DNA of 32,728 nt from a virus. The position numbers and the translations under genes are program-made. This document shows positions 2,607 to 31,688 of the stretch, piece after piece. The stretch lies in the IMG/VR virus record IMGVR_UViG_3300020118_000214, positions 1-32,728 of that record. The stretch is one strand, 5' to 3'. Below the pieces are notes generated by a model, which did no database searches, was not told the DNA's origin, and saw only the letters and a program-made list of their open reading frames with translations. Each line of letters starts with the position of its first letter. Position 1 is the first letter of the stretch.

Positions 2607-3478
2607 TGCCGAACACGTTCTACATCAAGCAGGGAGACCTCCTGCCCGTCATCCGTTCCACGCTCTATGACGCGAACGGAGATCCAATCGACTTGACCGG
2701 CGCCAACGTCACCTTCGTGATGCGGCTGCCGGGCGCGCCCAACCTCCAAGTCCGCGCGGGCGCGACCATCGTGGACCCAGTGGGCGGCGTGGTGCAGTAC
2801 GCCTGGCAGGAGGGCGACACCAACGTCGTGGGGGGCTTCGCCGCGGAGTGGTCAGCCAGCATCGGCGGGCAGCAGATGACCATCCCCAACTTGAACTACC
2901 TGACCGTCCAGGTGAGCAACAACCTCCAGACGGGCGTGGGGCCACCGCCGCCACCACCGCCGCTGAGCCCGCCCATCAGCTACGTCTCCCAACTCCTCGT
3001 GGTCACGAGCCCGAAGGCCTCGGACGGCGTCTCCGTCAACGCCACCGGTATCGCCGCGAACGCCCCGGGCAACGCGATGACCGGGCCGTTCTCCAACCCC
3101 GACGTCCCGCGCACGTTAAGGGTCGCCTTCGGACTGGGCTGGGACGGTGGTGCGGTGACGCTCAACGGGCTGGACCAATTCGGCAACCCCATCTCCGCAA
3201 CGGTCGCGGCGAACCCGGGCGGTTTCACCGACAGCACCCAGGTGTTCTCCTCCGTGACGAGTGCGTCCAAGGCCGCCGTGGGGGCTTCTGCCGCGGTGGC
3301 GACGCTGGGGTTAGGCGCGGGGCTGGGCATCCTGGCTGTCCTGGCGAACGCGAACGCGATGGTGTCCGCGGACAACATCCAGGAAGGGGCGACCATCGAC
3401 GCGGTGAACAACTCCTTCACGCCCGAGACGCCGCCCGACGGATCCGTGACGTACGCGCTCTTGGTCAACGTGAAGTAA
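2606..3478 (+). CDS. BppU-like baseplate/fibre protein
   Basis: The ATG at 2606 overlaps the previous stop (TGATG), so translation is coupled; this gives 290 residues. A TTG three bases earlier is less likely. Residues 2-95 follow the pattern of the BppU N-terminal domain, which attaches receptor-binding parts to a baseplate: an IKQGD-type opening, a DANGDPIDLTGA turn and then F-V-M-R. A poly-proline linker lies near residues 112-122. The C-terminal half is a Gly/Ala/Val-rich beta domain with a hydrophobic Ala-Gly stretch near residues 225-255. It lies between the repeat protein and two beta-helix proteins, so an adaptor holding fibres is plausible. The family call is from pattern recall. Confidence 0.6.
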   Translation: MPNTFYIKQGDLLPVIRSTLYDANGDPIDLTGANVTFVMRLPGAPNLQVRAGATIVDPVGGVVQYAWQEGDTNVVGGFAAEWSASIGGQQMTIPNLNYLTVQVSNNLQTGVGPPPPPPPLSPPISYVSQLLVVTSPKASDGVSVNATGIAANAPGNAMTGPFSNPDVPRTLRVAFGLGWDGGAVTLNGLDQFGNPISATVAANPGGFTDSTQVFSSVTSASKAAVGASAAVATLGLGAGLGILAVLANANAMVSADNIQEGATIDAVNNSFTPETPPDGSVTYALLVNVK

Positions 3479-3493
3479 AGATCGAGGGGACCC

Positions 3494-5179
3494 ATGGGCA
3501 ATCTAGCTGTGCTGGTGTCGGTGCTGCTTGCGCAGGCAGGCAACTTGAACGGGCGCCTGGTGCCGGCGCCGGGGCCCGACGGCGGCGTCATCCTCAAGCG
3601 CGGGTGCTTCCAGCTGCCCGACGGCTTCCAGATGTGCGGCGCCAGCTCCTTCATCGCAGGCACCACCGCATCGATGCAGCTCTTCGTGGACCCGGCCATC
3701 GGCTCCGACAACGGCAAGTGCACCTCCTCGGGCGTCGGCGCGTGCGCGACCATCCCCGCGGCCTACGCGAAGATGCCCAAGCTCGTGAGGCACCCGGTCA
3801 CCGTCTCGATGGCGTGCGGGACATACGACGCCGGCGCCTTCGTCGAGGGAGATGTCTTCGCTTACAACCCCGCCCTGAGCGGCAGCTACACGCCCGACGC
3901 GGGCTTGGCCCCCTTGCTCCTCTTCACGGGCACAATGCAGAACGTCACCCCGGCCACCGGGCCAGGCACGGGCACGCTGAGCTCCGCGACCGCGGGCAGT
4001 CCGCCACCCACAACCTGGGGGACCTTCACCCTCAACTCCGCCGGCTGGACGGTCAACGACTTGGCGAACAAATTCATCACCATCACCTCCGGGACGGCCG
4101 CGGGGGAGAGCCGGGCCATCGTCTCCAACACCAGCAGCACCGGGACGATCGCCGGCACCTGGAACACCACCCCCGACTCCACCAGCCACTTCGCCATCCA
4201 GCTGCCCTGCACGCACATCAAGGACGGCTTGAGCGAGGAGCCGAATCTGCTCTCCCTGTTCAACAGCGGAGGTCCAGGCCCCGAGCAGTCGGGCGCGGCG
4301 TTCATCGTGCGAGAGGCGCAGGCGGCGCCGATGATCCTCTCCCCGCAAGTCGTCATCCAGAACGTGGACGTCCAAGTCAAGAAGGGTGGCGACGGGCTGC
4401 TCTTTGAAGGTCCAGGCACCAACGCCCTGATTCAAAACGTCACGCTCACCAACGCCGGCGGCACGGCCAACACCGGAAGCGGCAACGGCTTCATCGCGGT
4501 GGAGAACGGCGCGATGGCCAGCGTCCAGTACGCGATCTGCACGGGCAGCGTCGCGGAGAACTGCATCAACAACAGCTACCAGGGGATGCTCACGGGCGCC
4601 TACGGGCAGCTGACCACGTTCGGGAACATCTTGAGCCCGGCCAGCGGCTCGCTCTCACCGGAGATCATCTTCGGCGGCACGGCCTACAATGCCCAGAATC
4701 AGTACACCTGCGGTGGCGGGGTCATCGCCTGTCAGGACGTCAGTGGCGCCTACGTGACCGAGTGGGGCAGTCACTTCGTCGACGTGGGGCCCACCGGCTA
4801 CGGCGTGTTCGTGGACGACACGGTTGGCGGCGGGGCGATGCAGCTCATCTGGTACCAGAACCAGATGACGGGCCCGAGCAGCAACTCGACCGAGGCCTTC
4901 TTCTTCAGCGGCGCCAACTCGGTGACGCTTCGTTTCATCACCGCCGGCACCACCATCACCAACTTCGGCTACGCCTTCTATTTCGGTGCCGAGCGCGCTC
5001 GCGTACAGAGCTATAGCGGAAACACGCTGCCCACCGTCACTGGCTCGGTCAACGCAGACATCGCGCTCTACGGCTTCACTGCCACGGGCTTCTACTCTAT
5101 GGCGAACTTGAACGCGCTGACCCCCGCGACCATCGCCGATCTAGCGACCGGGAACGCGATCTCCAACACGGTCCCGTAA
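3494..5179 (+). CDS. Right-handed beta-helix tailspike-like protein with exported N-terminus (paralogue 1)
   Basis: This encodes 561 residues from ATG 3494 with GAGGGG upstream. The N-terminus has a hydrophobic run ending AQA at residue 15, which resembles a Sec signal peptide although it lacks Lys/Arg. After a short linker there is an LFVDPAIGSDN-type motif near residue 63 and a RHPVTVS motif near 97, both shared with the gene at 5199. A TSGTAAGES module with DNT-like turns follows, then Gly/Asn-rich beta-helix coils from about residue 270 on, as in pectate-lyase-like tailspikes. Several Cys residues could form disulphides outside the cytoplasm. Likely role: host-surface glycan binding or cleavage. 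No catalytic residues can be assigned. Confidence 0.7.
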   Translation: MGNLAVLVSVLLAQAGNLNGRLVPAPGPDGGVILKRGCFQLPDGFQMCGASSFIAGTTASMQLFVDPAIGSDNGKCTSSGVGACATIPAAYAKMPKLVRHPVTVSMACGTYDAGAFVEGDVFAYNPALSGSYTPDAGLAPLLLFTGTMQNVTPATGPGTGTLSSATAGSPPPTTWGTFTLNSAGWTVNDLANKFITITSGTAAGESRAIVSNTSSTGTIAGTWNTTPDSTSHFAIQLPCTHIKDGLSEEPNLLSLFNSGGPGPEQSGAAFIVREAQAAPMILSPQVVIQNVDVQVKKGGDGLLFEGPGTNALIQNVTLTNAGGTANTGSGNGFIAVENGAMASVQYAICTGSVAENCINNSYQGMLTGAYGQLTTFGNILSPASGSLSPEIIFGGTAYNAQNQYTCGGGVIACQDVSGAYVTEWGSHFVDVGPTGYGVFVDDTVGGGAMQLIWYQNQMTGPSSNSTEAFFFSGANSVTLRFITAGTTITNFGYAFYFGAERARVQSYSGNTLPTVTGSVNADIALYGFTATGFYSMANLNALTPATIADLATGNAISNTVP

Positions 5180-5198: not shown

Positions 5199-7160
5199 AT
5201 GAGCTCGATTCTGCCGATCCTGTTGCCGATCTTGGTGGGCGTCACGCCGATCATCAAGGGCGAGGGCTTGAGCGTTACTCAGTTCGACGCCGGGCTCGTC
5301 AACGCCCAGAGCGTCGTGGCGGTCCAGGTAGACGCCGGCACCGCCAACGTCCAGACGCTCAACGTAAACGGTTTCATCGTCACAGGCAGCACCGTGGGGA
5401 GCCTGACGCTGTTCGTCGATGGCTCCCTCGGCAACGACTCAAATGGCTGCACTTCGTCCGGGTCTGGCGCGTGCCTCACGATGCAAGGGGTGGAACGGAA
5501 GATCCCGAAGAATATACGCCACCCGGTAACGGTGTCGGTGGCGACCGGCAACTATGCCTGCTCGAGCTGGGAGAACTTCAACTTTTCCTCTGACTTCGCT
5601 TCCGGGCAATACGGATCGCTCTGGGTCCACGGCACCACGCAGGCCGCGAGCATCACTGGCTCGCAGAGTGGCACTGTCGCCAGTGCCACCGACATCACCA
5701 ACGTGGCCGGCGTGCTGCCGACCGTCACCGCGAGCGGTAGTCCAGGCTGGACTCCACACGCCTTGCGCGGTCTGCTCTTCAACGTCACGAGCGGCACCGG
5801 CGCAGGCGAGACCCTCACCATCTCAGACAATACGGCATCGGTGCTCACCCTCGCCGGCGGATATTCGACCAGCACAGCGTTCTGGCCGGCATCTTCCGTG
5901 ATCGTCGGGATGTGCCAGCCGTTCGATGAGTACACCAAGCCAGACGCCACCAGTCACTTCGCCATTCTCACCAATGGGACGCACATTACGAGCGACTGCG
6001 CCGTGCCCACCGGGCCTGGAACGGGGAACTTCATGGGCGCCGCTCCGGCCCAGGCCCTCGACACCTACGGGATCCTCATCACCGGTGTGCGCGGGGGCGG
6101 TTACCAGGGCTCCTACACAAACGCGGGGAACACCGAGCAGGGTTACTGCAGCCCCCAGGCCGGCATCGCTTTCACCAACTTCGACTTCAACGACGCGAAC
6201 ATGGGAGCTGGGTTCTACGGCTACAACTCCGACTCCATCCAGGTGCGCTGGAACAGCTTCTCAAACATCTACTTCTGGGATGCCATCTGGCAGCACGTCG
6301 GGCGCGCCAGTCTCTTCAGCAACTATTCCACCAGCGGCTGCCTGTTGGGCAGCGACGCGTACAGCGGGGACACTGTGCTGTTGGTTGGCAACGTCGTTGG
6401 GCTCCTCGACAACTCCAAGGGCTGCCTCCAGTACGATGGTCAGTCCATCACTCCAGGTCCCAGGGTCCTGCTCACCGGGCTCAACAGCTACTACACGCAC
6501 GGGTTGCGCTCTGGCTTCAACGTCGTCGGCACATCGATCTTTCAGGAGTTTGACGACACGATCAGCGGGCCCAGTGTCGCTGCGGTCGTCATCAATCAGT
6601 CCAACACGGCAGTCACCTACACTGCGTCCTTCGGCACGCAGGCCTGGATCTCTGACAACAATTTCTTGCCGACTGGCGGGGAAGGCGTCTTTGTCGGACC
6701 CGGCACCTATCTCTACTCGACCGGGAACGCCGGGTCGGGCGGAACGTTCGGCTATAAGATCGTCGGGCCCGTCACCGCCTACTTCGATTCAAACCCGAAC
6801 GACACGCTCACCGGCTCGACCGGCAACATCTGCCAAGACCCGGGCTGCGCCAGCGCGGTCCAGTACGGAGACGTCAGCACAAAGAACATCTTCTTCGCCC
6901 CGCAAGGGGGCGCGCATAACACGCAGACCGGCAACCTGTCGGTGCCTACCACGACTGGGTGCACCGACAACTCGGTCACAGCCCGAGGGGCGATCGTCAA
7001 CACGCCCTGCTACGCCAGCCCGGACTCCAACCCCAATAGCGCCGGCGGCGCAACTTGGTCGTGCTACCCGTCTGCCGCAGGCACCATTCAGCTTCGCCTA
7101 TGCTGCGTGACGGCGACCTGCACCGCTAACAGCATCAAGTGGAACGTGGGGCAGCAATGA
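5199..7160 (+). CDS. Right-handed beta-helix tailspike-like protein (paralogue 2)
   Basis: The ATG at 5199 follows GAAGGGA at a good distance and gives 653 residues; a TTG just upstream is less likely. The N-terminus is a long hydrophobic stretch (residues 4-19) without basic residues or a clear cleavage site, so it may be a membrane segment or a packing helix. It shares with the preceding gene the LFVD-x-x-x-G-x-D motif, a CTSSG-x-GAC block, the RHPVTVSV motif and a TSGTGAGE module. Asn/Gly-rich coils fill the middle. The last 75 residues are Cys-rich, suggesting a disulphide-stabilised tip. A second host-recognition spike is the most likely role. Confidence 0.7.
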   Translation: MSSILPILLPILVGVTPIIKGEGLSVTQFDAGLVNAQSVVAVQVDAGTANVQTLNVNGFIVTGSTVGSLTLFVDGSLGNDSNGCTSSGSGACLTMQGVERKIPKNIRHPVTVSVATGNYACSSWENFNFSSDFASGQYGSLWVHGTTQAASITGSQSGTVASATDITNVAGVLPTVTASGSPGWTPHALRGLLFNVTSGTGAGETLTISDNTASVLTLAGGYSTSTAFWPASSVIVGMCQPFDEYTKPDATSHFAILTNGTHITSDCAVPTGPGTGNFMGAAPAQALDTYGILITGVRGGGYQGSYTNAGNTEQGYCSPQAGIAFTNFDFNDANMGAGFYGYNSDSIQVRWNSFSNIYFWDAIWQHVGRASLFSNYSTSGCLLGSDAYSGDTVLLVGNVVGLLDNSKGCLQYDGQSITPGPRVLLTGLNSYYTHGLRSGFNVVGTSIFQEFDDTISGPSVAAVVINQSNTAVTYTASFGTQAWISDNNFLPTGGEGVFVGPGTYLYSTGNAGSGGTFGYKIVGPVTAYFDSNPNDTLTGSTGNICQDPGCASAVQYGDVSTKNIFFAPQGGAHNTQTGNLSVPTTTGCTDNSVTARGAIVNTPCYASPDSNPNSAGGATWSCYPSAAGTIQLRLCCVTATCTANSIKWNVGQQ

Positions 7161-7267: not shown

Positions 7268-9799
7268 GTGCGGCCTACTTACCTGCACTTAGACGCGCAC
7301 GAGGGGACCGTCTGGGTCGCCATCGTGCTCCCGCCGGCGATCCAGGAGATCCTTGCTGGTCTTCAGGTGGGGGAGCAGCACGACAACGGCGTAGGGCCTC
7401 ACATCACGCTGGTCCACGCCGGCCGCAAGGACTCGGTCGACCCGGAGAATTTGATGGACGCGATCGAGGCGGTCGGCCGCATCGCAGCGCTGCACCCGGC
7501 GCTCGCCTTCCGCTTCACCGGCGTTGGGAAGTTCGCGCCATCCCCGCAGAGCGGGGCCAAGACGCCCGTCTACCTGGTGCCGTCCGCGGTGGGTCTGGCC
7601 GAGCTGCGCACGGACGTGATGCGGGCGATGAAATCCTGCGGCGTCTCGCCGAGCGCCACCTTCGACTTCGTCCCCCACGTCTGCTTGGGCTACGTGGACG
7701 ACCCAAACCCGCCCTTGCCCTCGGTGCCAAACATCACCTGGACCACGGAGGAGATCTCATTCTTCGTCAACCCCGAGCGCTACCGGATGCCGCTGTCGGA
7801 TCTGCCGCGCAAGGACCACGAGGTCGGCGAGGAGTCGGCTGTCTTTGCCACCCTATTTAAGCGTGGTATGCCTGATCCGGTGGCGGCGCCCGACGCTGGA
7901 CGCGCGCACTACCCGGCCCAGAAGGACGGGCCGAAGCCGGATTACGAGACCTTCGGAGGGGCGAGCCCGATGAATCGACGGGACATCGTTCAAAAGCGCG
8001 GCGGCAAGTGGGTGCTCCTCTCGCACGAGGGGAAGGTCTTGGGCGAGCACGGCTCCGAAGAGGAGGCTCGCTCCCAGGAGTCCGCCATCAACATCGCCAA
8101 GGCTCGCGCCGCCGGGCACCACATCGCCAAGCCCACCGACTCCGACGACTTCCAGCAGTTCTTGACCAAGCAGAACGTCGGCGACCCGGATCTGGAAGAG
8201 GAGGGCATCCCCGAGCGTCGCGGCGGCAAGTGGGTCATCGTCAAGAACGGCGAGGTGGTCGGCGAGTACGACCCGGACGTGGAGCAGCTCCACCTGATGA
8301 ACGGCTTCGCCAACCCCAACCTCGCCAAGTCGGGGCCCGAGGTCGGCTCACGCGCGGCGCAGGTGGGCGGGGAGCCGGACGTCCAGGAGACCTTCGGGGC
8401 CATGCCGAACATGGTGAAGAAGGACGCCAAGCGCTACGACATCGGGCAGCTGGCCAAGCCGGTGAAGATGAGAAACGGCTGGCTCAAGTGCGACGCGTTC
8501 CTGACTCGCACCGGGGTGTTCCCCTACCGAAACCCCGACGGGAGCGTCCGCCGCGAGCTTCGCCTGGCCTCTGAAGTCTTCCACCCCGACGCGCTGGCCT
8601 CCTTCTCGATGGCGCCCGTCACGGACGACCATCCCCCGGAGTTCCTCAACTCGAAGAACACCGGGAAGTACCAGCGGGGCCACATGGGCGAGCGCATCGA
8701 GCCCGACGGCCACTTGGTTCGCGGGACGATGCTCCTCACCAGCGACGCGTTGCTCAAGAAGATGGAGCGCGGCGACGCCCGGCAGGTCAGCTGCGGTTAC
8801 ACCTGCGATCTCGAGGACAAGCAGGGCGTCACCGACGACGGCGAGCGCTACGACTGCGTTCAGAGAAACATCCGTGGGAACCACGTGGCCATCGTTCCGG
8901 TGGCTCGAGCTGGGGAAGAGGCCCATGTCCGCATGGACAGCAGCGCTTGGGCAATGGTATCGATCAATGAAGAGGGCGGGGAATCCTCGTCCGCTGCCTC
9001 GGAGGGCGCGCACTTGAAGACCATCAAGATCGACGGCAAGGAGTACGTGGCGGGCTCGAAGGAGGCTGAGCGGGCCTTGGGCGACTGGAGGAAGCGGATC
9101 GACTCCGTCGGGACGCAGCTCAAGTCGATGGTCGAGCACACCGACGACATGGGCGACTATGCCGCCAAGCTCGACGAGGTGAAGAAGCTCCACGACACCG
9201 CGCGGAAGCTCCACGACGCCGCCTTCATCGCCCACACCGCGGCCAAGGGCGCGCACGACGACGCCGCGGCGGCGATGCAGCAGGAGTACGAGGAGCACAA
9301 GAAGCTCCTCGAGCAGCAGCAGCACAAGTCCGACTCCCTGGCCAAGGAGAACGAGGAGCTCAAGAAGAAGCTCGACGCGGCGCCGGCGGAGATCGCAGAT
9401 CGACTCAAGGCTCGCTCCACGCTCGAGGCGGCCGCCCGACTGGTGCTGGGCAAGAAGGAGAAGCTCGACGGGCTCTCCGACCGCGAGGTGAAGGAGAAGG
9501 TGCTCGCGAAGACCGACCCGGACTTGAAGCTCAAGGGGAAGAACGACGCCTACGTGGACGCCCGCTTCGACGTGGCGATCGAGGAGTTCCAGCCCGAGGA
9601 GCACGCGGACTCCGTCGTCACCGACGACGAGGCGGAGGACTTCGAGCCCGGGGACCCGGCCCGCTCCGACGGGATGGACGACGAGTGGGCCAACAAGCCC
9701 CACCGCGACAAGGCGGAGGCGCAGGCGGCGATGGAGTACAGAAACCGCAACCTCTGGCGGGAGCCGCTCGCGCCAGAGGCTCGAGACGTCCACCGGTAG
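7268..9799 (+). CDS. 2H phosphoesterase / DUF2213-type prohead protease / scaffold fusion
   Basis: This encodes 843 residues from GTG 7268. Residues 5-175 look like a 2H phosphoesterase (2'-5' RNA ligase-like) with H45-I-T47 and H137-V-C139; the second motif has Cys where Ser/Thr is usual. Residues 235-345 hold two GGKWV-type small repeats (RGGKWVLL and RGGKWVIV). Residues 395-560 match the DUF2213 prohead-protease pattern, with H455 (in DDHPPE) and S508 (in VSCGY) as likely catalytic residues. Residues 590-780 are a Lys/Glu-rich coiled coil typical of an internal scaffold cleaved by the linked protease. The acidic tail ends by residue 843. Capsid genes follow directly, as expected. The family calls are from motif recall. 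Confidence 0.8.
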   Translation: MRPTYLHLDAHEGTVWVAIVLPPAIQEILAGLQVGEQHDNGVGPHITLVHAGRKDSVDPENLMDAIEAVGRIAALHPALAFRFTGVGKFAPSPQSGAKTPVYLVPSAVGLAELRTDVMRAMKSCGVSPSATFDFVPHVCLGYVDDPNPPLPSVPNITWTTEEISFFVNPERYRMPLSDLPRKDHEVGEESAVFATLFKRGMPDPVAAPDAGRAHYPAQKDGPKPDYETFGGASPMNRRDIVQKRGGKWVLLSHEGKVLGEHGSEEEARSQESAINIAKARAAGHHIAKPTDSDDFQQFLTKQNVGDPDLEEEGIPERRGGKWVIVKNGEVVGEYDPDVEQLHLMNGFANPNLAKSGPEVGSRAAQVGGEPDVQETFGAMPNMVKKDAKRYDIGQLAKPVKMRNGWLKCDAFLTRTGVFPYRNPDGSVRRELRLASEVFHPDALASFSMAPVTDDHPPEFLNSKNTGKYQRGHMGERIEPDGHLVRGTMLLTSDALLKKMERGDARQVSCGYTCDLEDKQGVTDDGERYDCVQRNIRGNHVAIVPVARAGEEAHVRMDSSAWAMVSINEEGGESSSAASEGAHLKTIKIDGKEYVAGSKEAERALGDWRKRIDSVGTQLKSMVEHTDDMGDYAAKLDEVKKLHDTARKLHDAAFIAHTAAKGAHDDAAAAMQQEYEEHKKLLEQQQHKSDSLAKENEELKKKLDAAPAEIADRLKARSTLEAAARLVLGKKEKLDGLSDREVKEKVLAKTDPDLKLKGKNDAYVDARFDVAIEEFQPEEHADSVVTDDEAEDFEPGDPARSDGMDDEWANKPHRDKAEAQAAMEYRNRNLWREPLAPEARDVHR

Positions 9800-13113: not shown

Positions 13114-13115
13114 GT

Positions 13116-13189
13116 CGCAGGGTGGAGAAGGCTGGTATCTCGCCAGACTCATAATCTGGAGACCGCGGGTTCAAGTCCCGCCCCTGCAA
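13116..13189 (+). tRNA. tRNA with CAT anticodon, initiator (fMet)-like
   Basis: A full cloverleaf of 74 bases can be folded by hand. The acceptor is GCAGGG/CCCTGC with a C1-A72 mismatch, then U8, a 4-bp D stem (GAGA/TCTC), anticodon stem CCAGA/TCTGG with loop CTCATAA (CAT at 13150-13152), variable loop AGACC and T stem GCGGG/CCCGC with loop TTCAAGT. The C1xA72 mismatch and the A11-U24 pair are bacterial initiator tRNA signatures. However, the anticodon stem lacks the usual three consecutive G-C pairs; only the middle pair is G-C. CCA is not encoded: A73 is followed by TGAGG. It lies between a hairpin and the ribosome binding site of the next gene. Confidence 0.9.
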
Positions 13190-13202
13190 TGAGGAGTGGA
13201 CG

Positions 13203-14116: not shown

Positions 14117-14361
14117 AGGACAAGTCCCAGCTGGAGCTGGACCGTCTGAGGGCGGAGCTCAGCGCTGCGCGCAACGCGCTCGCGCAGTACGCCCGAAGCT
14201 CGAGCTGGGCGCACGGCGTGGCGGGCTTTCGCAGCACGCTGCACAAGCCGTGGGCGCCGGCGGCCAAGGCGCTGGGCATGGACCCCTCTCGCCCGCCGAC
14301 AGACTTGGAGGTGGTGATGAGGCTCTCGGAGCTCGAGCGGAACGGGGTGTCTCGTGGATGA
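14113..14361 (+). CDS. Small helical protein of unknown function in the connector operon
   Basis: This encodes 82 residues from GTG 14113, overlapping the previous stop by 4 bases. Residues 1-30 form a charged, heptad-like helix rich in Leu, Arg and Glu. Residues 60-82 are a second helix. The gene overlaps its neighbours at both ends, which supports it being real. No family is recognised. A small neck-associated or chaperone-like role is possible but unproven. Confidence 0.55.
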   Translation: MKDKSQLELDRLRAELSAARNALAQYARSSSWAHGVAGFRSTLHKPWAPAAKALGMDPSRPPTDLEVVMRLSELERNGVSRG

Positions 14362-14908
14362 CTTGAGCGATGCGATCCTTTTGTGCGAGTCGGGCAACTC
14401 CTACACCGTGACGCGCTTTCCCGCGGACGCGAACGTGGGGGGGCGCCTCGTGCCGTCGGTTGCGCCGAAGGCCCCCTGGGCGCAGCAGACCCGATACCAG
14501 AAGCTGGGCTACCTGGTGGGGAACGGCGGCGAGGCCTACCAGCTGGTCACAGCTGGCATCTCGGCGAACACCGGGAGCGGCCCGGCAGGGCAAGGCTCGG
14601 GCATCGTCGACGGCAGCGCGGTGTGGAACTGGGTGGGGCACGCGGCGACCCAATTCGTGATTGACGCCTCCATCCAGCCCGTCCCGGGCGAGGACCTGGA
14701 TCGACTGAATGAGCTCTACCGCACCAAGGAGGTGCGCTGGCTCTTTTGCAAGACGACCCTCCAGACGGAGAGCGCCGAGGAGGCCTCCACGCCCCAGGAG
14801 GCAGATCAGATCCAGGTGGACGGGAGCATGTGGAAGGTGGTCTCCGAGCACGCCTGGGACAGCCTCGGGAACTACCGCAAGGTGCTGATTGCGCGGATCG
14901 GCCGCTAG
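14354..14908 (+). CDS. Probable head-closure protein with inserted carbohydrate-binding-like module
   Basis: This encodes 184 residues from GTG 14354, overlapping the previous gene by 8 bases. The outer parts follow a known phage head-closure pattern: a short YTVTRF segment, FVIDASIQPVPGEDLDRL, and a late DQIQVDGSMWKVVSEHAW with a GNYRKVLI-type end. Between them, residues 42-95 are a module with W42, G52, Y62, an AGISAN turn, GPAGQGSGIVDG and W91-N-W-V-G95. A module of the same pattern lies in baseplate J at 27525-27683. Such modules often decorate virion proteins and may bind host sugars. This gene ends the connector cluster. Confidence 0.65.
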   Translation: MDDLSDAILLCESGNSYTVTRFPADANVGGRLVPSVAPKAPWAQQTRYQKLGYLVGNGGEAYQLVTAGISANTGSGPAGQGSGIVDGSAVWNWVGHAATQFVIDASIQPVPGEDLDRLNELYRTKEVRWLFCKTTLQTESAEEASTPQEADQIQVDGSMWKVVSEHAWDSLGNYRKVLIARIGR

Positions 14909-14967: not shown

Positions 14968-15456
14968 GTGAAGACTTTGGGAAAGACTCTGTTCACGCTC
15001 GCGCTCTGCGCCTTCGTCGGGACCATGGCCCTGATGACCAAGCGCGCCCACGCCGCAGACTTGTGGCAGTTCCAGCTCACCTCCACCGACGCCGGACCCA
15101 CCGAGGTCGAGGCCCTGCGCACCCAGCAGCAGTACGACATCTGGTGCAACATCCCGTCCGTCTTCAAGACTGACCGGCTCGGAGCCGGGACGACCGGACT
15201 GGGCGGGACCGCGGTGCTGGGCGACGGCGGCATCTTCATGAGCGTCGACGTGCCGGCGCAGGTGTTTCAGCTGCCGGCGTCTACCGCCGCGCTCTCCTAC
15301 GCCAACTGGAACGGCAACGGTCTGCAGGGCGGGGCCTCGGTCGCCAACATCCCGCGCGGCCGCTTCTTCTCCGGCAACCACAACGGCATCTGGGCCCTGG
15401 CGATCGACGCCGGAAACCCGGCGTGCAACGTGTCCTTGGTGGTGGGCGGTCAGTAA
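14968..15456 (+). CDS. Exported small beta protein with Sec signal peptide (paralogue A)
   Basis: The GTG at 14968 lies about 9 bases after GAGGAGGG and gives 162 residues. Residues 1-29 are a textbook Sec signal peptide: K2 and K6, a hydrophobic core over residues 8-23 and an A-H-A cleavage motif before A30. The mature part is beta-rich, with Cys near IWCNIP and near the end in CNVSLVV. The next gene's mature protein has a similar opening (GDLW compared with ADLW) and end (CNVFLVA), so the two look paralogous. It sits between neck genes and the tail terminator gene. It may be an exported surface or virion decoration protein; function unknown. Confidence 0.75.
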   Translation: MKTLGKTLFTLALCAFVGTMALMTKRAHAADLWQFQLTSTDAGPTEVEALRTQQQYDIWCNIPSVFKTDRLGAGTTGLGGTAVLGDGGIFMSVDVPAQVFQLPASTAALSYANWNGNGLQGGASVANIPRGRFFSGNHNGIWALAIDAGNPACNVSLVVGGQ

Positions 15457-15511
15457 GCCGTCCGCCTTCTAAGCTTCTTCACGCTCTTTAAGCTCAAGGA
15501 GGCAGAAGCCG

Positions 15512-15901
15512 ATGAAGAAGGGAGCACTGTTCGCCCTGCTGGTCGGCTTCGCCGCCATGGCTGGGGACCTCTGGGTGGGGAACATCCAGGGGACCGTCGC
15601 GGGAACGAGCTACAACAACACGAGCACGACGGCCGCCACCGGCGCCTTCCCGCTCAAAGCCGGAGTCACCTACGCGGTGCAGTGCCAGGCGGACTCCTGC
15701 ATCACGAGCGGAAGGGATTCCGGCACGCTGGCGAGCTGCACGTTGATCATCGACGGCGGCACGGCGACCACCGCGGTGCAGGTGGGTGCGGGGCAGCTCT
15801 ACGACTTGCCGCTCCCGCCCCCGCATGCGGTCATCGCGGTGCAGGACCAAAACGGGGGGACGCCCAACTGCAACGTCTTCCTGGTCGCAAACCCGAACTA
15901 G
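15512..15901 (+). CDS. Exported small beta protein with Sec signal peptide (paralogue B)
   Basis: This encodes 129 residues from ATG 15512 with AAGGAGGCAG upstream. The N-terminus has K2-K3, a hydrophobic core and a likely AMA cleavage site at residue 17, followed by GDLWVGN. The mature part has paired Cys residues (QCQADSC near residue 60, SC near 75, NC near 120) that could form disulphides in an oxidising compartment. The end CNVFLVA resembles the end of the preceding gene's product. The gene is compact and directly followed by the third beta-helix gene. Virion-linked or host-surface role; no family recognised. Confidence 0.7.
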   Translation: MKKGALFALLVGFAAMAGDLWVGNIQGTVAGTSYNNTSTTAATGAFPLKAGVTYAVQCQADSCITSGRDSGTLASCTLIIDGGTATTAVQVGAGQLYDLPLPPPHAVIAVQDQNGGTPNCNVFLVANPN

Positions 15902-15917
15902 CAGCGAGGTACACGCC

Positions 15918-17903
15918 ATGAAGCGAGCGGTGCTGGTCCTGTTGCTCGCCGGCGCCCAGGTGGCGTCGGCCGCTGGTCTTCTGACGCCGGGGCGCGGCGC
16001 ACGCGCGAGCGCACACATCTCGCCGGCGGCGACCGCTTCGCTGGCCAGCCCCAACACCGGCGGACTGATCCAGACCTACTGGGTCAACTGTTCGACCGGG
16101 TCAGACGGCAACAACGGCCTCTCCAGCTCCGCGCCGCTCCTGCACATCCAGACGGCGATGGACGCCGTCCCGCTGATCGTCCGCGGCTACTACCAAATCA
16201 ACGTGATGGGCGGCAGCACGTGCGCCGAGTCGCTCTTCGACAACCACATCTACGGCACCGGCCTGTTCGTCAACGCGACGCTCACCGGGACGGGCGCGAT
16301 CAACATCGTCGGTCAGCAACTGAACACGCCGACGCTGGGCAGCGGCGGGTCTACGTCTGGCACGCTCGGGGCCGACCCGGCGCAGCCTGGTGTCACGTGG
16401 TCCGCTACCATCGGCGCCAACTGGGCGGCTCACGAGCTCAAGGGCATGTTCCTGCAGGTCACTAGCGGGTCCATCAGCGGGCAGATCTACCCGATCGCCG
16501 ACAACACGACGACGACGGTAGACCTCCCAGCGCTGCTCGGCGGAGGCATCGGGAACTCCACGTTCAACATCGTGACCTTCGGGCAAACCATCACGGACGC
16601 GCCGTCGACGTTCGCGACCGTGACCGTCGACAATGTTTCGGGCTACGGCGGCTTCGCGAGTTCTTCTGGTCCGTTCGGCGGCCTGATGATCAACAGGATG
16701 AACATCCACGGGTCCAACGTGATGGGGGTCAACCTCCAGGCGGGACAGGTGGTGCTCACCGAGTGCAAGGTCGACGCGACGAACGAAGGCGTTCAGGCGG
16801 GGCCTGGCTCCGCCGGGCTCAACCTGCAGAGGTCGTACATCGCGCCGAACACCAACGGTATCGCCACCCAGGGCACGCCATTCATTCAGCTAGAAGGCGT
16901 GGTGATCAACGGTGGCACCGGCGCAGGCATCTTGACTGAAGGACGTAGCTACATCAACGTGGGGGTCAGCGCCCTCATCATCCAGGGCACATGTACCGGT
17001 GGTGGCTCCTGCGGTGCCATCGACCTCGCAAACAACTCCGAGTTGGTAAACATCCCCTACGCGGCCGACGTTGTCTTGAGGAACGGCGTCGTTGGTCTGC
17101 TCCTGGGCGGCGGTTCTCAGGCGCACCTCAGTAACCTGGTCTCGACCGTGAACAGCAGCGACGGGATCAAGTTCGACAGCCTCGACAACGGGTTCGGGCA
17201 GAACAGCCTGGTCCTGGGTCAATCACAGATCACCAGCAACGGTCGAGACGGGATCCGCATCGAGTCCACGCACAACACCCTGAACGTCACCGCCACGGTC
17301 TCGTCGAACACTGGCACTGGCGTGAACATCGTGCCGCGTGCAGCTGGCGCTCAGCCCAGCCACAACGTGGTCGCGATCTCTACGGGCTCTACTTTCGCAA
17401 CCAACGGTCACGACGTCTCGCCTGACGGCAGCACCTTCTACACGATCGCCAACGTGAGGGGAGCGTCGGGCGCCTTCGTGACCGACACCTCGGCGCTCGA
17501 CAACCGCGTCTACTCTGGCACTCTGACGGTCGGCAACGGCTACCTGCGCTCCACGGACATGACGTTCAGCTGCTTCAACCAGCTGACCACCCTCACCACC
17601 GGCACGTTCTGTCAGTTCGGCCCGTTCAGCAACACCGGCACCCTTAAGGACTGCACCTACACCAACTCGGTGGCCGGCGGTGGCAGCGCGACGGAGACCA
17701 TCAAGGTCGCGACGGCTGCAGGGTGCGCGTCCGGCGTGCTGGCCACCATCAGCGAGCCAGGCGGCGCGTCTGCCTTTACGGCCACCGCCGCCACCATCAA
17801 CTCCTCGGCGATGACCGCCTCGACGTTCTTCGCCTGCATCACCGCGAACGCGACGACGGCAAACGTCGCCGGCGTGCTGACCTGCCACTACACGCAACCG
17901 TAA
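15918..17903 (+). CDS. Secreted right-handed beta-helix protein (paralogue 3)
   Basis: This encodes 661 residues from ATG 15918. The N-terminus is a clear Sec signal peptide: K2-R3, a run of Leu/Val, and cleavage after ASA at residue 18. A YWVNCSTGSDGNNGLSS block near residue 55 resembles the DUF1565-like opening of beta-helix proteins and parallels the LFVD motifs of the genes at 3494 and 5199. A TSGSISGQ module with a DNT turn is also shared. Residues 230-540 contain Asn/Gly-rich repeat coils (NGGTGAGI, NSSDGIKF, SNTGTGV). The last 110 residues are Cys-rich. A polysaccharide-binding or -cleaving spike or secreted enzyme is likely. Confidence 0.75.
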   Translation: MKRAVLVLLLAGAQVASAAGLLTPGRGARASAHISPAATASLASPNTGGLIQTYWVNCSTGSDGNNGLSSSAPLLHIQTAMDAVPLIVRGYYQINVMGGSTCAESLFDNHIYGTGLFVNATLTGTGAINIVGQQLNTPTLGSGGSTSGTLGADPAQPGVTWSATIGANWAAHELKGMFLQVTSGSISGQIYPIADNTTTTVDLPALLGGGIGNSTFNIVTFGQTITDAPSTFATVTVDNVSGYGGFASSSGPFGGLMINRMNIHGSNVMGVNLQAGQVVLTECKVDATNEGVQAGPGSAGLNLQRSYIAPNTNGIATQGTPFIQLEGVVINGGTGAGILTEGRSYINVGVSALIIQGTCTGGGSCGAIDLANNSELVNIPYAADVVLRNGVVGLLLGGGSQAHLSNLVSTVNSSDGIKFDSLDNGFGQNSLVLGQSQITSNGRDGIRIESTHNTLNVTATVSSNTGTGVNIVPRAAGAQPSHNVVAISTGSTFATNGHDVSPDGSTFYTIANVRGASGAFVTDTSALDNRVYSGTLTVGNGYLRSTDMTFSCFNQLTTLTTGTFCQFGPFSNTGTLKDCTYTNSVAGGGSATETIKVATAAGCASGVLATISEPGGASAFTATAATINSSAMTASTFFACITANATTANVAGVLTCHYTQP

Positions 17904-17916
17904 GAGGGGATGATCG

Positions 17917-18138
17917 ATGCGCCAACACACTGCCCGCCTGATGCTCGTCGCGATCCCCTGGGCGTTCGCGCTTGTCGGCACGTCTGTCCAGTGCGAGCGG
18001 CAGCGCGGCAAGCGCTACAACGTCGAAGCCGACGCCCGATGCACCGCCACCGGCGGCACCTGGTGGGATCCAGGCGAGGAGTGCCTCCAGGCAAAGTCTG
18101 GCCCGCCGCCCAAATCCCGCTCCGTCAGTGCTAAGTGA
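17917..18138 (+). CDS. Small exported Cys-containing peptide
   Basis: This encodes 73 residues from ATG 17917, after GAGGGG. An ATG 7 bases earlier is in another frame. The N-terminus has three basic residues and a hydrophobic stretch (residues 8-22) fitting a signal peptide, with C26 soon after. The mature part has C-x-A-x-G-G-x-W-W and a final EEC, so a disulphide-bonded mini-domain is likely, and the tail is Lys/Pro/Ser-rich. The stop overlaps the following ATG (TGATG). It lies in the exported-protein block; function unknown. Confidence 0.55.
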   Translation: MRQHTARLMLVAIPWAFALVGTSVQCERQRGKRYNVEADARCTATGGTWWDPGEECLQAKSGPPPKSRSVSAK

Positions 18139-18179
18139 TGGAGCCCACCACCCGCCGTTACCTTCGAGGAGCCAAGTCC

Positions 18180-18413
18180 GTGAAGACTCTCTTGACCCTG
18201 GCGATCACCTTCTCCGCCTGCGCCACGACGCCGGCCGGCATCCGCCGCGAGGCCATCGCGCGAATGGAGGACTGCGTGAAGGCCGCCCAGCAGCCGGAGC
18301 TCGCCCGCGGCCCTTGCACCGACGACGTGCAGGGCTACTGCGCGGCGCACCACATCAGCTGTGACTCGGAGTGGCTGTGGCAGGCGGTCCAAACCAATCT
18401 CCCGGACGAATGA
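18180..18413 (+). CDS. Small lipoprotein (possible outer-membrane spanin subunit)
   Basis: The GTG at 18180 was chosen because CGAGGAG (18165-18171) lies 8 bases upstream and because it places the signal peptide at the N-terminus; an ATG at 18138 would add 14 residues before it. The 77-residue product starts with a short hydrophobic run ending TFSAC, a slightly unusual lipobox with C14 as the lipidated Cys. The mature part is helical and has four further Cys residues. Small lipoproteins in phages are often o-spanins, but the extra Cys residues and lack of Pro-richness leave that open. Its stop overlaps the next start (ATGA). Confidence 0.55.
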   Translation: MKTLLTLAITFSACATTPAGIRREAIARMEDCVKAAQQPELARGPCTDDVQGYCAAHHISCDSEWLWQAVQTNLPDE

Positions 18414-18520
18414 GCGCGCTGCGCGAGGCGCTGCTCGTCTCGCTGCTCGTTGTGGCCTCCACCTTCGGGACTCTGGTCTTGGTGGGCTTCGTGCTCTCTG
18501 GCGGGTGCGCCGGGGGTTAG
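18410..18520 (+). CDS. 36-residue single-TM peptide
   Basis: The ATG at 18410 overlaps the preceding stop by 4 bases. The ORF reads M-S-A-L-R-E-A and then about 22 hydrophobic residues rich in Leu and Val, ending GGCAGG. It has the shape of a small membrane peptide such as an anti-holin, holin-like or lysis-regulating peptide, or it could modulate the lipoprotein it is coupled to. The TAG stop (18518-18520) runs into the palindrome at 18519. The coupled start is the main support. Confidence 0.45.
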   Translation: MSALREALLVSLLVVASTFGTLVLVGFVLSGGCAGG

Positions 18521-18554: not shown

Positions 18555-19139
18555 ATGGGGTTCAATTTACAGGCGTTCGACAGCGCCCTGATGACTCAGA
18601 TCGTCGCTGCCACGGCAGCCCTGCTGCCCGACGGGCAGGCGCAGGTGGTGTTCGCCAACCAGAACGCTCGGGCGCCGAACGAGGACTACGTCACGGTCAA
18701 GCCGGACGGCCCGTTCTCGGTCGGCACCGGCAAGGCCCTGGTGGAGAGCTACGACAACACCCAGCCTCAGGGGCAGGAGGTGGGAAAAACCTACCAGGGC
18801 CCGGCGGAGATGCGCCTGTCCATCCAGGCCTTCACGGTGGGCTTCGAGAACGCCATCCCCATCCTGGAGGCCATCCAGATGGCCTTTCAGACCAGGCCTG
18901 TGTTGGACGCGCTCGAGACCGCTGGCATCACGGTGATCGATCACGGACGCATCCAGTCGGTGCCGAAGGTGTACGGCTCCGACATGGAGGGGCGCGCGGT
19001 GCTGGAGATGCGTCTCTACGTCCAGCAGTCGATCACCGTGCGGACCGGGTACATCGCGAAGATCAACGGGGCGGCGCCGCTGGCAAATGGCACCTGGAAC
19101 CCCGCCAGTGGTGGCCCGACCGGCACTTTCACCGAATAA
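18555..19139 (+). CDS. Tail terminator / neck protein (gp12-like)
   Basis: This encodes 194 residues from ATG 18555 with GGAGGG about 12 bases upstream. The order of elements (an N-terminal helix, NQNARAPNEDYVTVKP, a GPAEMRLSIQAFT strand, a helix with AFQTRP, and a late SVPKVYGSDMEGRAVLEMRLYV) matches phage neck terminator or tail-completion proteins that cap the tail tube before head joining. Its place directly before the sheath region fits. It starts the tail module after the third palindrome. Confidence 0.75.
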   Translation: MGFNLQAFDSALMTQIVAATAALLPDGQAQVVFANQNARAPNEDYVTVKPDGPFSVGTGKALVESYDNTQPQGQEVGKTYQGPAEMRLSIQAFTVGFENAIPILEAIQMAFQTRPVLDALETAGITVIDHGRIQSVPKVYGSDMEGRAVLEMRLYVQQSITVRTGYIAKINGAAPLANGTWNPASGGPTGTFTE

Positions 19140-27113: not shown

Positions 27114-28511
27114 TTGGCAACGTTCGGCGTGACGCCCCAGGGCTTCGTCAAGATGACGGTGCTGGACGTCCAGTCGGCCATCCAGGACGACTTCCGCAAC
27201 ACGTTCGGGCAGCAAGTCCCGGTCAACCCTCAGAGCTTGAACGGGCAGTACATCAACATCTGGGCGGAGCGCGAGGCCTCCGTCTGGGATTTGCTCGAGC
27301 TCGTCTACAACGACTTCGATCCGGATCAAGCCCTCGGCACCGGGCTCGACGGCATCTGCGCGCTGACCGGGACCCGCCGACAAGACCCGAAGTCCTCCAT
27401 CGTCACCGAGACGCTCACGGGCGTGCCCGGTGTCGTCGTGGCCGCGGGGAAGATCATCACGACTGTCGGGAGCAACATCCCCTTCCTCACCGACGCCTCG
27501 GCGACCATCGCCTCGGTGCCGGCTTGGGTCGGAAACACCAACTACTCGAGCGTCGGCACGCGCGTCACCAACGCGGGCAACGTGTACCAGCTCATCGGTC
27601 CCGGGGTGAGCGCTGCATCGGGAGGGCCCTCAGGCACCGGTAGCAGCATCCTCGACAACACGGCCATCTGGCGCTTCCTGGGAGCTGGGACGGGCGCGGT
27701 CGACGTGCTGGCGATGTCTCAGAATCAAGGCCCGCTCGAGGCCCCCTCGGGGACGCTCACGCAGATTCAGACTCCGGTCGCCGGCTGGAACGGGGCGATC
27801 AACGTGCTCGACGCCACGCTCGGCAGCGACGAGGAGACGGACGCTGCGCTGCGCATCGACCGCGAGGCGCAGCTGCGCGTCCCATCAAACGCTGCAGTCG
27901 GGGCGATCCGCACCGCACTGCTCAGAGTCAGCGGCGTCACCTCCGTGACGGTGCTGGAGAACGTCAGCGACGTCACCGTCGACACGATGCCGCCGCACTC
28001 GGTGGAGTGCGTGGTGATCGGCGGGGCAAACCAGGACATCTGGAATGCCCTGGTGACGACCGTCGGAGCCGGCGTCGACAACATGGTGGGCAACACATCT
28101 GGCACGGCGACGGACAGCCAGGGGGTGACGCACATCGTGGCGTTCACCCGTCCCACCAACGTGCCGATCTACGTGACGGTAAATCCCATCGTTGACCCGG
28201 GGAAGTTCCCGGTGGACGGCGCGACGCAGATCAAGGACCTGGTGGTGACCTACGGCGATCAATTCGTCGCGGACCAGGACGTCGTCTCCTACCTCATCGG
28301 CGCGGCGATCATGAACGGCGTCGCAGCCCCCAACCTGCCGGCGATCCCCGGTGTGCCCGGCGTGCTGGACCCTGGCAACGGCGGCGCGGGCATCTTGATC
28401 AGCACGACGATCAACCCGACCCTCCAGACCACAGTGCCGATCAGCGCTCGGCAGATCGCCACCTTCGACACCTCTCGCGTCACCGTCAATCCGACCAACG
28501 GGAACCTCTAA
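27114..28511 (+). CDS. Baseplate J-like wedge protein with inserted module
   Basis: This encodes 465 residues from TTG 27114, after GGGAGGGAGA at 27100-27109. Key J-like features: DDFRNTFGQQVPVNPQS near residue 24, an EREASVWDLLELVYNDFDPDQALG helix, and GSDEETDAALRIDREAQLR near 240. Residues 138-190 are an extra module with W138, VTNAGNVYQLI, GPSGTG and a W-R-F-L-G end, like that in the gene at 14354. J-like proteins form the baseplate wedge ring. The stop overlaps the next ATG (TAATG). Confidence 0.85.
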   Translation: MATFGVTPQGFVKMTVLDVQSAIQDDFRNTFGQQVPVNPQSLNGQYINIWAEREASVWDLLELVYNDFDPDQALGTGLDGICALTGTRRQDPKSSIVTETLTGVPGVVVAAGKIITTVGSNIPFLTDASATIASVPAWVGNTNYSSVGTRVTNAGNVYQLIGPGVSAASGGPSGTGSSILDNTAIWRFLGAGTGAVDVLAMSQNQGPLEAPSGTLTQIQTPVAGWNGAINVLDATLGSDEETDAALRIDREAQLRVPSNAAVGAIRTALLRVSGVTSVTVLENVSDVTVDTMPPHSVECVVIGGANQDIWNALVTTVGAGVDNMVGNTSGTATDSQGVTHIVAFTRPTNVPIYVTVNPIVDPGKFPVDGATQIKDLVVTYGDQFVADQDVVSYLIGAAIMNGVAAPNLPAIPGVPGVLDPGNGGAGILISTTINPTLQTTVPISARQIATFDTSRVTVNPTNGNL

Positions 28512-29512
28512 TGCGCACTCTGCTCCTCGCAGTGGCCCTGACAGCTCGAGCGGCCCTGGCCCAGACGCTCTTCGACGGCGGCGCGCCGGCGCTCCCCATC
28601 ACCAAGCAGGACGCCCGCATCCGGACCACTCCGCTGAACCAGACCTACACCGCGGCGGACATGAACTCCGTGAGCGGAAACATCTACCTCATCGAGCAGG
28701 CGCTCTTAGGTGACGGAGGCACCGCCAACTACTCACAATTGAGCTCCGGATGGCTCAAGGCCTTCGACTGCGACTTCAGCGCGCAGGCCAACACCGCGCT
28801 CGACGGTGGGGACGGCACCGTCTACACCATCTGCGGCCTCCCCTGGACCACCACAGGTCGCGGCGCGGGTTCCAATACGTGGGGCTACGCGGAGATCGAT
28901 GCCGGGCTGACGCTGGTGCAATACGACGCCGGCGACACTGGCTCTGGCTACTGCATGGGGAACAACTCGGGCACGGTTACAGGCATCTACACCTCGCTCT
29001 ACTCGATTATCCCGAACTTGACCCCCAGCACCGGCATTCGCGCGACGGTGCAGTGGACCGGGGCTCCGAACGCCACTACATCGCACGACGCGATCATCGT
29101 CACGGCGAGTCCGTGGAAGGCTCCCTCCCCCAACTTCAACATGGGGCCCTGCCTGCGCTATGGGTGGACCACGCAGCTCGCCTTTCAGTGCGTCAACTCG
29201 AGCAACACCTCGAGCGCGTGGGGGGCATCTGGCTTTCCCGGGGGCAGTCCCTGGAATGCCCCGTCTTGGACACGCATCACCGCAAGGCTGGGCTACGGAG
29301 ACGGTCAGGCGCACTGCGCGGTCAACGACGGTGGTGTCACAGTGGATTGGATGCCGGCGGCCGCAGTGCCCAGCACAACCGTGACGGCGGGCTCCCTCAA
29401 TGGCTTTGACCCGCCGAACGTCTACCTGCTCCTGGCGGCGGGCAGGACCACCAATGCCAGCCCTCCTCTCATCGGCTCCATCAAGCGCGTCATACTCGAG
29501 TACAAGCCCTAA
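28511..29512 (+). CDS. Exported lectin-like/fibre protein coupled to baseplate J
   Basis: This encodes 333 residues from ATG 28511, overlapping the stop of the J gene (TAATG), so expression is coupled. Residues 1-17 form a clear Sec signal peptide (R2, a Leu/Ala-rich core, cleavage after ALA). Residues 40-65 have TYTAADMNSVSGNIYLIEQAL, a pattern seen near the base of tail fibres. The rest is a beta-rich, concanavalin/LamG-like domain with several Cys residues and SWTRITARLGYGDG. Its position between the J and DUF2612 genes argues for a virion role, yet it carries an export signal. Lectin function is inferred. Confidence 0.65.
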   Translation: MRTLLLAVALTARAALAQTLFDGGAPALPITKQDARIRTTPLNQTYTAADMNSVSGNIYLIEQALLGDGGTANYSQLSSGWLKAFDCDFSAQANTALDGGDGTVYTICGLPWTTTGRGAGSNTWGYAEIDAGLTLVQYDAGDTGSGYCMGNNSGTVTGIYTSLYSIIPNLTPSTGIRATVQWTGAPNATTSHDAIIVTASPWKAPSPNFNMGPCLRYGWTTQLAFQCVNSSNTSSAWGASGFPGGSPWNAPSWTRITARLGYGDGQAHCAVNDGGVTVDWMPAAAVPSTTVTAGSLNGFDPPNVYLLLAAGRTTNASPPLIGSIKRVILEYKP

Positions 29513-30162: not shown

Positions 30163-31191
30163 ATGCCAGCACCGAAGCCATCAGAAGACGCCGAGTGGGC
30201 AGACGGCCCGTCGTCCCCTTCGCCCGTCATCACGGATCCGCCGCTTGGGAAGAAGCAACAGGGGTGGGTCGACAACGAGGCGCCGCCGGCGGAGTACTTC
30301 AACTGGTGGATGAACACCATCTTCCAGTGGCAGGCGTACCTGCGGGACTTCGAGGGAAACGTCCACACTTGGACCGCTGCCAACACCTTCAACGCGCTCA
30401 GCACCTTCAACGCGCCGGGCAGCTCCTCCGCGGCGATCTTCAACGCGAACGCCGCCGGCTTCTCGCACTACGCCGCTGAGTTCTACGACGGCGCAGCTGG
30501 CAACGGGGCCATCTTCGTCGGGGGCTCTCACAGCAACCTGGTCAACGCAGTCAGCACCGGGGCGGGCTTCGCCGCGGTAGCCGGGTTCACTCAAGGAGCC
30601 GCCGGGATCGGCACGTCGGGTGTCGCCGCTTCAGGAGCTGGCGCGGGCGGGTCAGGCGTCTTCGCTGGGTCTCAAGATCCCAACGCGTGGGGTCTTCAGA
30701 TCAGCACTAACCAGGCGAGCCCCGTGGTCGGCGCCGGCAACCTGAAGCAGCAGACCGCGCCCAGCGCGCCGGGTGACGGCGATTTCTGGAACGACAAGAA
30801 CGCGCACACTTTCAACGTCCAACTCAACGGCAAGACGGTGCATGCGTACCCGGACGACGCCGCCGCCGGGTTGAGCTTCAGCGCGGGCTGGGCGAGTAAC
30901 GGCGCGTTCACCTGTAGATCGGCGAAGAACATTGCCGGCGATGTCAGGCTACAGGGGGAGCTTGTCGCTTCTGCGGGGAATTTGGCGACCAGTCTCTTCA
31001 CGTTGCCGAGCGATCAAAAGCCGACTCAAAACACCACCATCACCTGCACCCTTCTTCGAAGCGGCACGCCGAACTTGACGAACCTGACGATCTTCTCGGC
31101 GACGGGGATCGTGGCGTGCAACATCGCGGGCGGCACTGCCAACGGAGACATCATCCTGCTCGACGGCATCACCTTCCCGACAGCGTTCTAA
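30163..31191 (+). CDS. Tail fibre protein
   Basis: This encodes 342 residues from ATG 30163 after GAGGGG. Residues 1-70 contain KKQQGWVDNEAPPAEYFNWWMNTIFQWQAYL, a widely shared N-terminal segment of phage tail fibres that joins them to the baseplate. A central region (80-200) is Ala/Gly/Ser-rich and beta-helical, and includes AGDGDFWNDKN-like sequence near 205. The C-terminus is a beta domain likely to bind the host receptor. No signal peptide is present, in contrast to the exported gene two positions upstream. Its stop overlaps the stop of the minus-strand gene by 4 bases. Confidence 0.8.
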   Translation: MPAPKPSEDAEWADGPSSPSPVITDPPLGKKQQGWVDNEAPPAEYFNWWMNTIFQWQAYLRDFEGNVHTWTAANTFNALSTFNAPGSSSAAIFNANAAGFSHYAAEFYDGAAGNGAIFVGGSHSNLVNAVSTGAGFAAVAGFTQGAAGIGTSGVAASGAGAGGSGVFAGSQDPNAWGLQISTNQASPVVGAGNLKQQTAPSAPGDGDFWNDKNAHTFNVQLNGKTVHAYPDDAAAGLSFSAGWASNGAFTCRSAKNIAGDVRLQGELVASAGNLATSLFTLPSDQKPTQNTTITCTLLRSGTPNLTNLTIFSATGIVACNIAGGTANGDIILLDGITFPTAF

Positions 31192-31688
31192 GGCGTCGCG
31201 GGCTGATCGAGGCTGCGATCGGCGTGCTCGCTGTAGTCGATCTCGGTGTCGTCGTAGCCGTTGTTACCCCAGCCACTGTGCAAGATGGAGTCGAGACCGT
31301 CCTTTGCGTGGAACATCTCGTGCGGCAGGAAGATCGCCTGCTTGTCGACGTAGATCTTCCCGCTGACGGGGTCCCAGTGCCCCGAAACGAGACTGCCCAT
31401 GTAGTGACCGCCGGTGGCGGCCCATCTGTGGATCGTCAGTCCGTGAAACGTGGCGCAGAACTTGTCGCTCGAGACCGTCCCATGCTTGTCCATCAGCTGT
31501 CGGACGAGGGCCAAGTCTTTCGCCATCGTCTGCTGATTCATCGGCGCTTCGGACTCGACGTTGATCCCGCAGTCGAAGCTGTAGTGGTAATTCGCGGGCC
31601 CACTGCTCGCTTGATCGGCGTCGCTGCCCCCGGATCCATCTCCGCAGGCCCCCCAGCTCAGTGCAGCCAGCATCATCAATGCGCGCAT
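31188..31688 (-). CDS. Secreted lipoprotein with HExxH metallopeptidase-like motif
   Basis: The only minus-strand gene. ATG at 31688 (reading leftwards) follows GGGAGAAC and gives 166 residues; a start at 31718 would put 10 extra residues before the signal. Residues 1-14 form a short lipoprotein signal ending SWGA-C15, a slightly irregular lipobox. The linker is Gly/Ser/Asp-rich. H123-E-M-F-H127 is a zinc metallopeptidase motif, with H137 as a possible third ligand. C40 and C78 could pair. No other domain is recognised. It faces the + strand fibre gene and looks like a cargo (moron) gene. Confidence 0.7.
   Translation of the reverse strand: MRALMMLAALSWGACGDGSGGSDADQASSGPANYHYSFDCGINVESEAPMNQQTMAKDLALVRQLMDKHGTVSSDKFCATFHGLTIHRWAATGGHYMGSLVSGHWDPVSGKIYVDKQAIFLPHEMFHAKDGLDSILHSGWGNNGYDDTEIDYSEHADRSLDQPATP

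Follow-up and report, generated by a model that had tools for sequence, protein, structure and literature searches.

Gene content of the locus and its genomic setting

The window, i.e. the whole stretch of DNA that was analysed, is a complete IMG/VR record of 32,728 bases and represents a fragment of a contractile-tailed phage, in which six consecutive reading frames with Sec, lipoprotein or membrane N-termini are inserted between a head-closure gene and a tail terminator gene (Table 1; genes are named by the coordinate at which they begin). This arrangement had been proposed from the sequence alone and was borne out here: our scorer called five signals between 14968 and 18413 and left 18410 as a membrane peptide, and both flanking genes, 14354 and 18555, were recognized by PHROG matches. 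The former also matched the Pfam E217 collar protein gp28 (PF22755) at an E-value of 9.5e-4, a match that falls short of the cutoff.

Table 1. Signal-bearing and related genes of the window with the two genes that flank the cluster
Feature	Position	Strand	Details
Cys-rich paralogue, weak signal (hydrophobic, uncharged N-terminus)	3494..5179	+	561 aa, 10 Cys
Cys-rich paralogue, weak signal (hydrophobic, uncharged N-terminus)	5199..7160	+	paralogue of 3494 and 15918
Left neighbour, head-closure/collar	14354..14908	+	phrog_939 (head protein), E 1e-8
Sec-signal protein, 162 aa, mature part with 2 Cys	14968..15456	+	GTG start, GGAGG Shine-Dalgarno, score 11.3
Sec-signal protein, 129 aa, 4 Cys	15512..15901	+	ATG start, AAGGAGG Shine-Dalgarno, score 12.9
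Sec-signal protein, 661 aa	15918..17903	+	ATG start, score 12.9
Small Cys-containing protein	17917..18138	+	ATG start, good Shine-Dalgarno, score 11.1
Predicted lipoprotein, 77 aa, mature part with 5 Cys	18180..18413	+	GTG start, GAGGAG Shine-Dalgarno, lipobox FSAC, score 12.6
36-aa peptide, single membrane segment, without signal peptide	18410..18520	+	start overlaps stop of 18180 (ATGA)
Right neighbour, tail terminator	18555..19139	+	phrog_7975, E 3e-7
Sec-signal protein between baseplate J-type gene and 29516	28511..29512	+	score 11.2
Lipoprotein-like gene outside the assembly operon	31188..31688	-	score 10.2, borderline; HExxH-like PHEMFH motif

The structural genes of the window include a head protease (phrog_530), capsid (phrog_264), sheath (phrog_205), tape measure, hub and baseplate J, and its capsid, protease, hub, spike and J are homologous to those of phages PLPE, ZF40, 138, 56 and phi1422 (tblastn). 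Judged by sequence, the genome carrying the cluster is a dwarf myovirus of the phiPLPE group, whose members have genomes of approximately 45 kb with the gene order terminase-portal-head-tail-baseplate-fibres (PMC3391216). The fragment of 32.7 kb contains neither terminase nor portal.

Among the genes of the cluster, the product of 14968 is probably related to that of 15512 and to that of gene 28521 in the relative G001, the alignment of the three keeping Cys residues and a C-terminal CNV. The 15918 protein is a paralogue of 5199 (BLASTP E 5e-7) and of 3494, and the latter two are in turn paralogues of each other (E 4e-25); it may be of beta-helix or tailspike-like type. The AlphaFold model of 15512 was all-beta at low confidence (pLDDT 51) and that of 15918 reached a pLDDT of 34, both being of too low quality to support a fold search. 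The N-terminus of 17917 could be either a signal peptide or a membrane anchor, and the small lipoprotein and membrane genes 17917, 18180 and 18410 may be a separate matter from the rest of the cluster. The signal-bearing proteins of the window matched no Pfam, PHROG or NCBIfam family and nothing useful in the PDB, where 28511 gave no match and 15918 a single weak and unrelated one. The window additionally encodes a fibre-type gene without signal, 30163, so the exported proteins are not its only candidate fibres.

A simple sigma-70 scan of the + strand between 14000 and 19200 found neither promoter nor terminator, which leaves the possibility of a moron with its own promoter and terminator unsupported, and this absence argues weakly for late co-transcription of the cluster with its neighbours. 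No PADLOC model matched, and an anti-phage defence system is accordingly not supported.

Signal prediction exceeds the chance level

Signals were called with a purpose-written gene caller and a heuristic Sec/lipobox scorer, not with SignalP. Applied to lambda as a control, the scorer recognized Lom, Bor, Rz1 and Rz. In the window, 6 of 39 called genes were signal-bearing (14968, 15512, 15918, 17917, 18180 and 28511), compared with 0.14 expected from shuffles. The chance rate of the scorer was estimated as 0.37% from shuffled sequences and 0.56% from internal pseudo-N-termini, which makes the probability of such an excess about 8e-9, or 2e-6 at a cautious rate of 1%. Among 483 called genes of eight comparison phages (lambda, Mu, one part of T4, Enc34, 56, 138, ZF40 and PLPE), the scorer flagged Lom, spanins, lysozymes or endolysins and small or non-assembly genes, but not one head or tail assembly gene. 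Chance prediction was rejected on the combined evidence of shuffles, pseudo-N-termini and comparison phages.

Further signal-like N-termini had been noticed elsewhere in the window, and these fared unevenly. Gene 28511, whose ATG overlaps the stop of the J-type gene 27114, was confirmed by the scorer, and the minus-strand gene starting at 31688 was borderline; 3494 and 5199 failed, because no positive charge precedes their hydrophobic run.

The suggestion that Cys residues in the mature parts fit an oxidising compartment agrees with the composition of the window, where predicted mature parts contain 2.31% Cys versus 0.82% elsewhere (p=4e-6). The same test applied to the relatives G001, G007 and G008 was negative.

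Signal-bearing genes recur in the same slots of related genomes

Related contigs were collected through the capsid (48) and through a sheath alignment (30), the two sets partly overlapping; a single-sequence sheath query and the 15918 protein each found no IMG/VR relatives. Synteny among the relatives of the window was good, and L044 differs from the others in the orientation of its tail module, which is inverted with respect to the head module. Nothing separates the head-closure gene from the tail terminator gene in L002, L004, L005, L009, L012 and L045. G001 has two signal-bearing genes in this position and a third just before the head-closure gene, L006/G007 has one between head closure and tail terminator, and L104 has one between a neck gene and the tail terminator. 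Signal-bearing genes also follow the capsid gene in G007, L006, L007, L028, L029 and L035, and the slot between J and the next baseplate gene is occupied both in the window (28511) and in G001 (39314), the N-termini of these two proteins being similar (E 0.003). In G008, a relative of 42% GC, long fibre-like signal-bearing genes lie in the fibre region, and one of them starts on the stop of a signal-less fibre-adaptor gene. The same slots hold unrelated signal-bearing genes in different relatives. On the sheath tree, which leaves out L104 owing to miscalled genes and for which the trait label pools different slots, at least four gains or losses are needed. The trait is not universal, as G004, a member of the window's clade with myxophage-type genes, lacks such a cluster.

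Some of the proteins found in relatives can be assigned to a type. The signal-bearing product of L006 4574-5230 ends in the tailspike domain K1-lyase_C (PF24146, E 4e-21); this region matches signal-less tailspike or minor tail proteins of Streptomyces phages and also L013 5546, which immediately follows the capsid gene and has no signal either. Together with the PHROG tail fiber match of Mx8 p64, it accounts for the fibre or spike domains recognized in signal-bearing proteins of relatives. A second family, represented by G001 29376 and G007 37356, combines a signal with two conserved Cys residues and was found elsewhere only in Mx8 and Mx9 among 50,697 phage records; despite divergence of sequence, its members in G001, G007 and Mx9 keep the charge, the hydrophobic core and AxA-type cut sites of the signal.

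Cultured phages carry the same feature

The signal feature extends beyond the window genome to the isolated phages Mx8, Mx9 and phi1422. A signal stands at the beginning of the putative tail-fibre gene in both Mx8 and Mx9, and further signal-bearing fibre-like genes follow. In Mx8 the N-terminal domain of this fibre is preceded by the signal and starts at residue 26-30, whereas in genes of Bradyrhizobium phage ppBjS10J-1 and Stenotrophomonas phage BUCT555 it starts at residue 3-4, and the later part (tip) of the putative fibre is common to a signal-less fibre of the myovirus G007. The conserved gene with signal and Cys pair lies in Mx8 on the + strand (L069 17863-18173), opposite the annotated p65 (-); it is a single frame in Mx9, whereas the Mx8 record has it broken into two. 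In the papers on Mx8 that were consulted, no mention of the signal feature was found. Phi1422 is a lytic phage of Bdellovibrio (PMC3391216), and its fibre region has two signal-bearing genes, gp68 and gp75. In its relatives 56, 138, ZF40 and PLPE (Aeromonas, Vibrio, Pectobacterium, Iodobacter) no signal-bearing assembly genes were found.

The host of the window phage is probably a myxobacterium (Myxococcota), a predator living in soil, as suggested by its kin and not by the window itself. On the sheath tree G001, G007 and G004 group with the window in one clade; the first two contain the family otherwise seen only in Mx8 and Mx9, and G004 has endolysin and integrase-type genes in common with these phages. 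The window's GC content of 66% fits Myxococcota. A genome scan for the host yielded only a distant Gemmatimonadota MAG, and the host assignment accordingly rests on the genes of G001, G007 and G004.

Possible export of fibre-type proteins and their fate

Particles of tailed phages are taken to be assembled wholly in the cytoplasm, and export tags on fibre-like phage proteins are for this reason unexpected. We interpret the cluster as a set of phage-encoded, Sec-exported fibre, tailspike or decoration proteins placed where the late assembly operon tolerates insertions, a reading whose merits and doubts we weigh as equal. Its components differ in strength: export of the cluster proteins appears very probable, and the larger members are likely to be of fibre or decoration type, while for docking on virions, given export, the balance is level or tips slightly towards doubt. 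The sequence-only reading had left a choice between action on the host envelope and joining of the virion after export. Export itself is upheld by prediction, and joining of the virion gains some ground from the fibre and spike domains in relatives and from Mx8 and Mx9, not from the window's own proteins.

According to the proposed route, the cluster would be transcribed late with the head and tail genes, as its operon position suggests, and the signals would direct the products to Sec, with predicted cleavage by signal peptidase I, or by peptidase II for 18180. The mature domains would then fold in the periplasm, several of them with disulfides if their Cys content is a guide, and at lysis the exported proteins would come into contact with completed particles and attach to them as accessory adhesins, a step suggested mainly by Mx8 and Mx9. 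According to the annotation of T4, its short tail fibre gp12 can be added after completion of the phage, which makes late docking conceivable in principle; in the literature searched no precedent was found for docking after export. More broadly, and rather tentatively, phages of predatory bacteria (Myxococcota, Bdellovibrionota) may use an unrecognised assembly route, whereby fibres and decorations, including the Mx8/Mx9 tail fibre, would be Sec-exported, folded in the periplasm with disulfides, freed of their signal and attached to virions at lysis.

The most serious competitor, which we consider a real though minority possibility, is that the proteins, once exported, remain with the infected cell, in the periplasm, in the outer membrane or on the surface, where they might block superinfection, mask receptors and so spare progeny from loss to debris, or serve as host-surface adhesins similar to the mosaic adhesive trimer (MAT) proteins of Bdellovibrio. 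The signals and the presence of a lipoprotein gene in the cluster are consistent with such action, the exported lambda proteins Lom and Bor are envelope proteins, and the surface of Bdellovibrio displays signal-bearing trimeric MAT proteins related to phage fibres (PMC10769870). The Mx8/Mx9 fibre nevertheless retains an N-terminal domain that otherwise stands at the start of genes in phage fibre position, and the genes of the cluster lie inside an assembly operon, not in an early or lysogeny region. Moreover, a lysogenic benefit cannot explain the signal-bearing genes of phi1422, which is a lytic phage.

An unlikely alternative of narrower reach assigns 17917, 18180 and 18410 to lysis, as a spanin- or holin-like membrane set beside unrelated exported genes. 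A lipoprotein with an overlapping small membrane peptide would suit this function, and lipoprotein and membrane genes are present in the fibre region of phi1422 too; no endolysin, however, is adjacent to 17917-18520, 18180 is not proline-rich, and no match to a spanin or holin family was obtained. As it covers three genes only, this alternative is compatible with Sec-exported fibre or decoration proteins in the remainder of the cluster.

That the hydrophobic N-termini serve membrane interaction or anchoring in the virion, the proteins remaining uncleaved in particles assembled in the cytoplasm, seems improbable: the signals were predicted by a home-made scorer alone, 14968 and 17917 are atypical and 3494 and 5199 lack a positive n-region, but the conserved signal architecture of the diverging G001/G007/Mx9 family, the lipobox of 18180 and the signal-less homologues that begin directly at the domain all speak against it.

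Comparison with known systems

A close parallel to the cluster is the fibre region of Mx8 (p64-p67) and Mx9 (p14-p15), which likewise contains a run of signal-bearing fibre-like genes and shares the signal and Cys-pair family and the fibre tip with the window's relatives G001 and G007; these phages are, however, podoviruses, and the run lies in their fibre/lysis region instead of separating head from tail genes. Capsid, protease, hub, spike and baseplate J of the phiPLPE group belong to families that the window also has. Members of this group with non-predator hosts have no signal-bearing genes in the assembly region, whereas phi1422 has them in the fibre region. Tailspikes with K1-lyase_C resemble the L006 protein in this domain, although the related phage tailspikes and minor tail proteins examined had no signal peptide. 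Lom, Bor and superinfection-exclusion lipoproteins are also exported through Sec or lipoprotein signals of phage genes, but they are small envelope proteins, not of fibre type, and do not form multi-gene runs in an assembly operon.

The MAT fibres of Bdellovibrio are signal-bearing, related to phage fibres and varied in their tips (PMC10769870). A signal peptide is also predicted in the window proteins; the MAT fibres differ in being chromosomal and in having a common conserved N-terminal domain of about 130 aa. PDB searches with phi1422 gp68, two G008 fibres and window 28511 gave no match at all, and that with window 15918 only the weak, unrelated one; none of the solved MAT tips was matched, and membership in the MAT family is therefore not supported.

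In the literature searched, from which subscription journals were mostly absent, no paper was found to describe tailed phages with signal-bearing fibres. Signals in front of fibre or tailspike domains are scattered over the sheath tree as well as present in cultured phages, and if the predictions are correct, either some parts of the virion are produced outside the cytoplasm or phages display adhesins of their own on the host; both alternatives are open to testing with laboratory phages. Such genes might also be a source of the phage-like MAT adhesins by which Bdellovibrio recognises its prey.

Other features of the window

A tRNA-Met (CAT) gene is located at 13115-13190 within the head operon. 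The head maturation protease (7268-9799) represents an unusual fusion, its N-terminal residues 45-178 matching an RNA ligase PHROG. The 676-aa protein encoded at 576-2606 consists mostly of GQPDEDLPWP...GPPWP repeats and lies upstream of a BppU_N-domain protein (2603-3478), which is followed by the two Cys-rich paralogues 3494 and 5199. A small domain with the pattern Y..G..V.NGGN.Y......GGPSGTG..I.DG...W is present within both 14354-14908 and 27114-28511 of the window and also in L010 (3054-3755), L011 (5914-7449, with a weak CBM_5_12 match) and L104 (1874-2674). It is carried by different virion proteins, namely head closure, J, tail terminator and sheath, and looks like a mobile surface-decoration domain.
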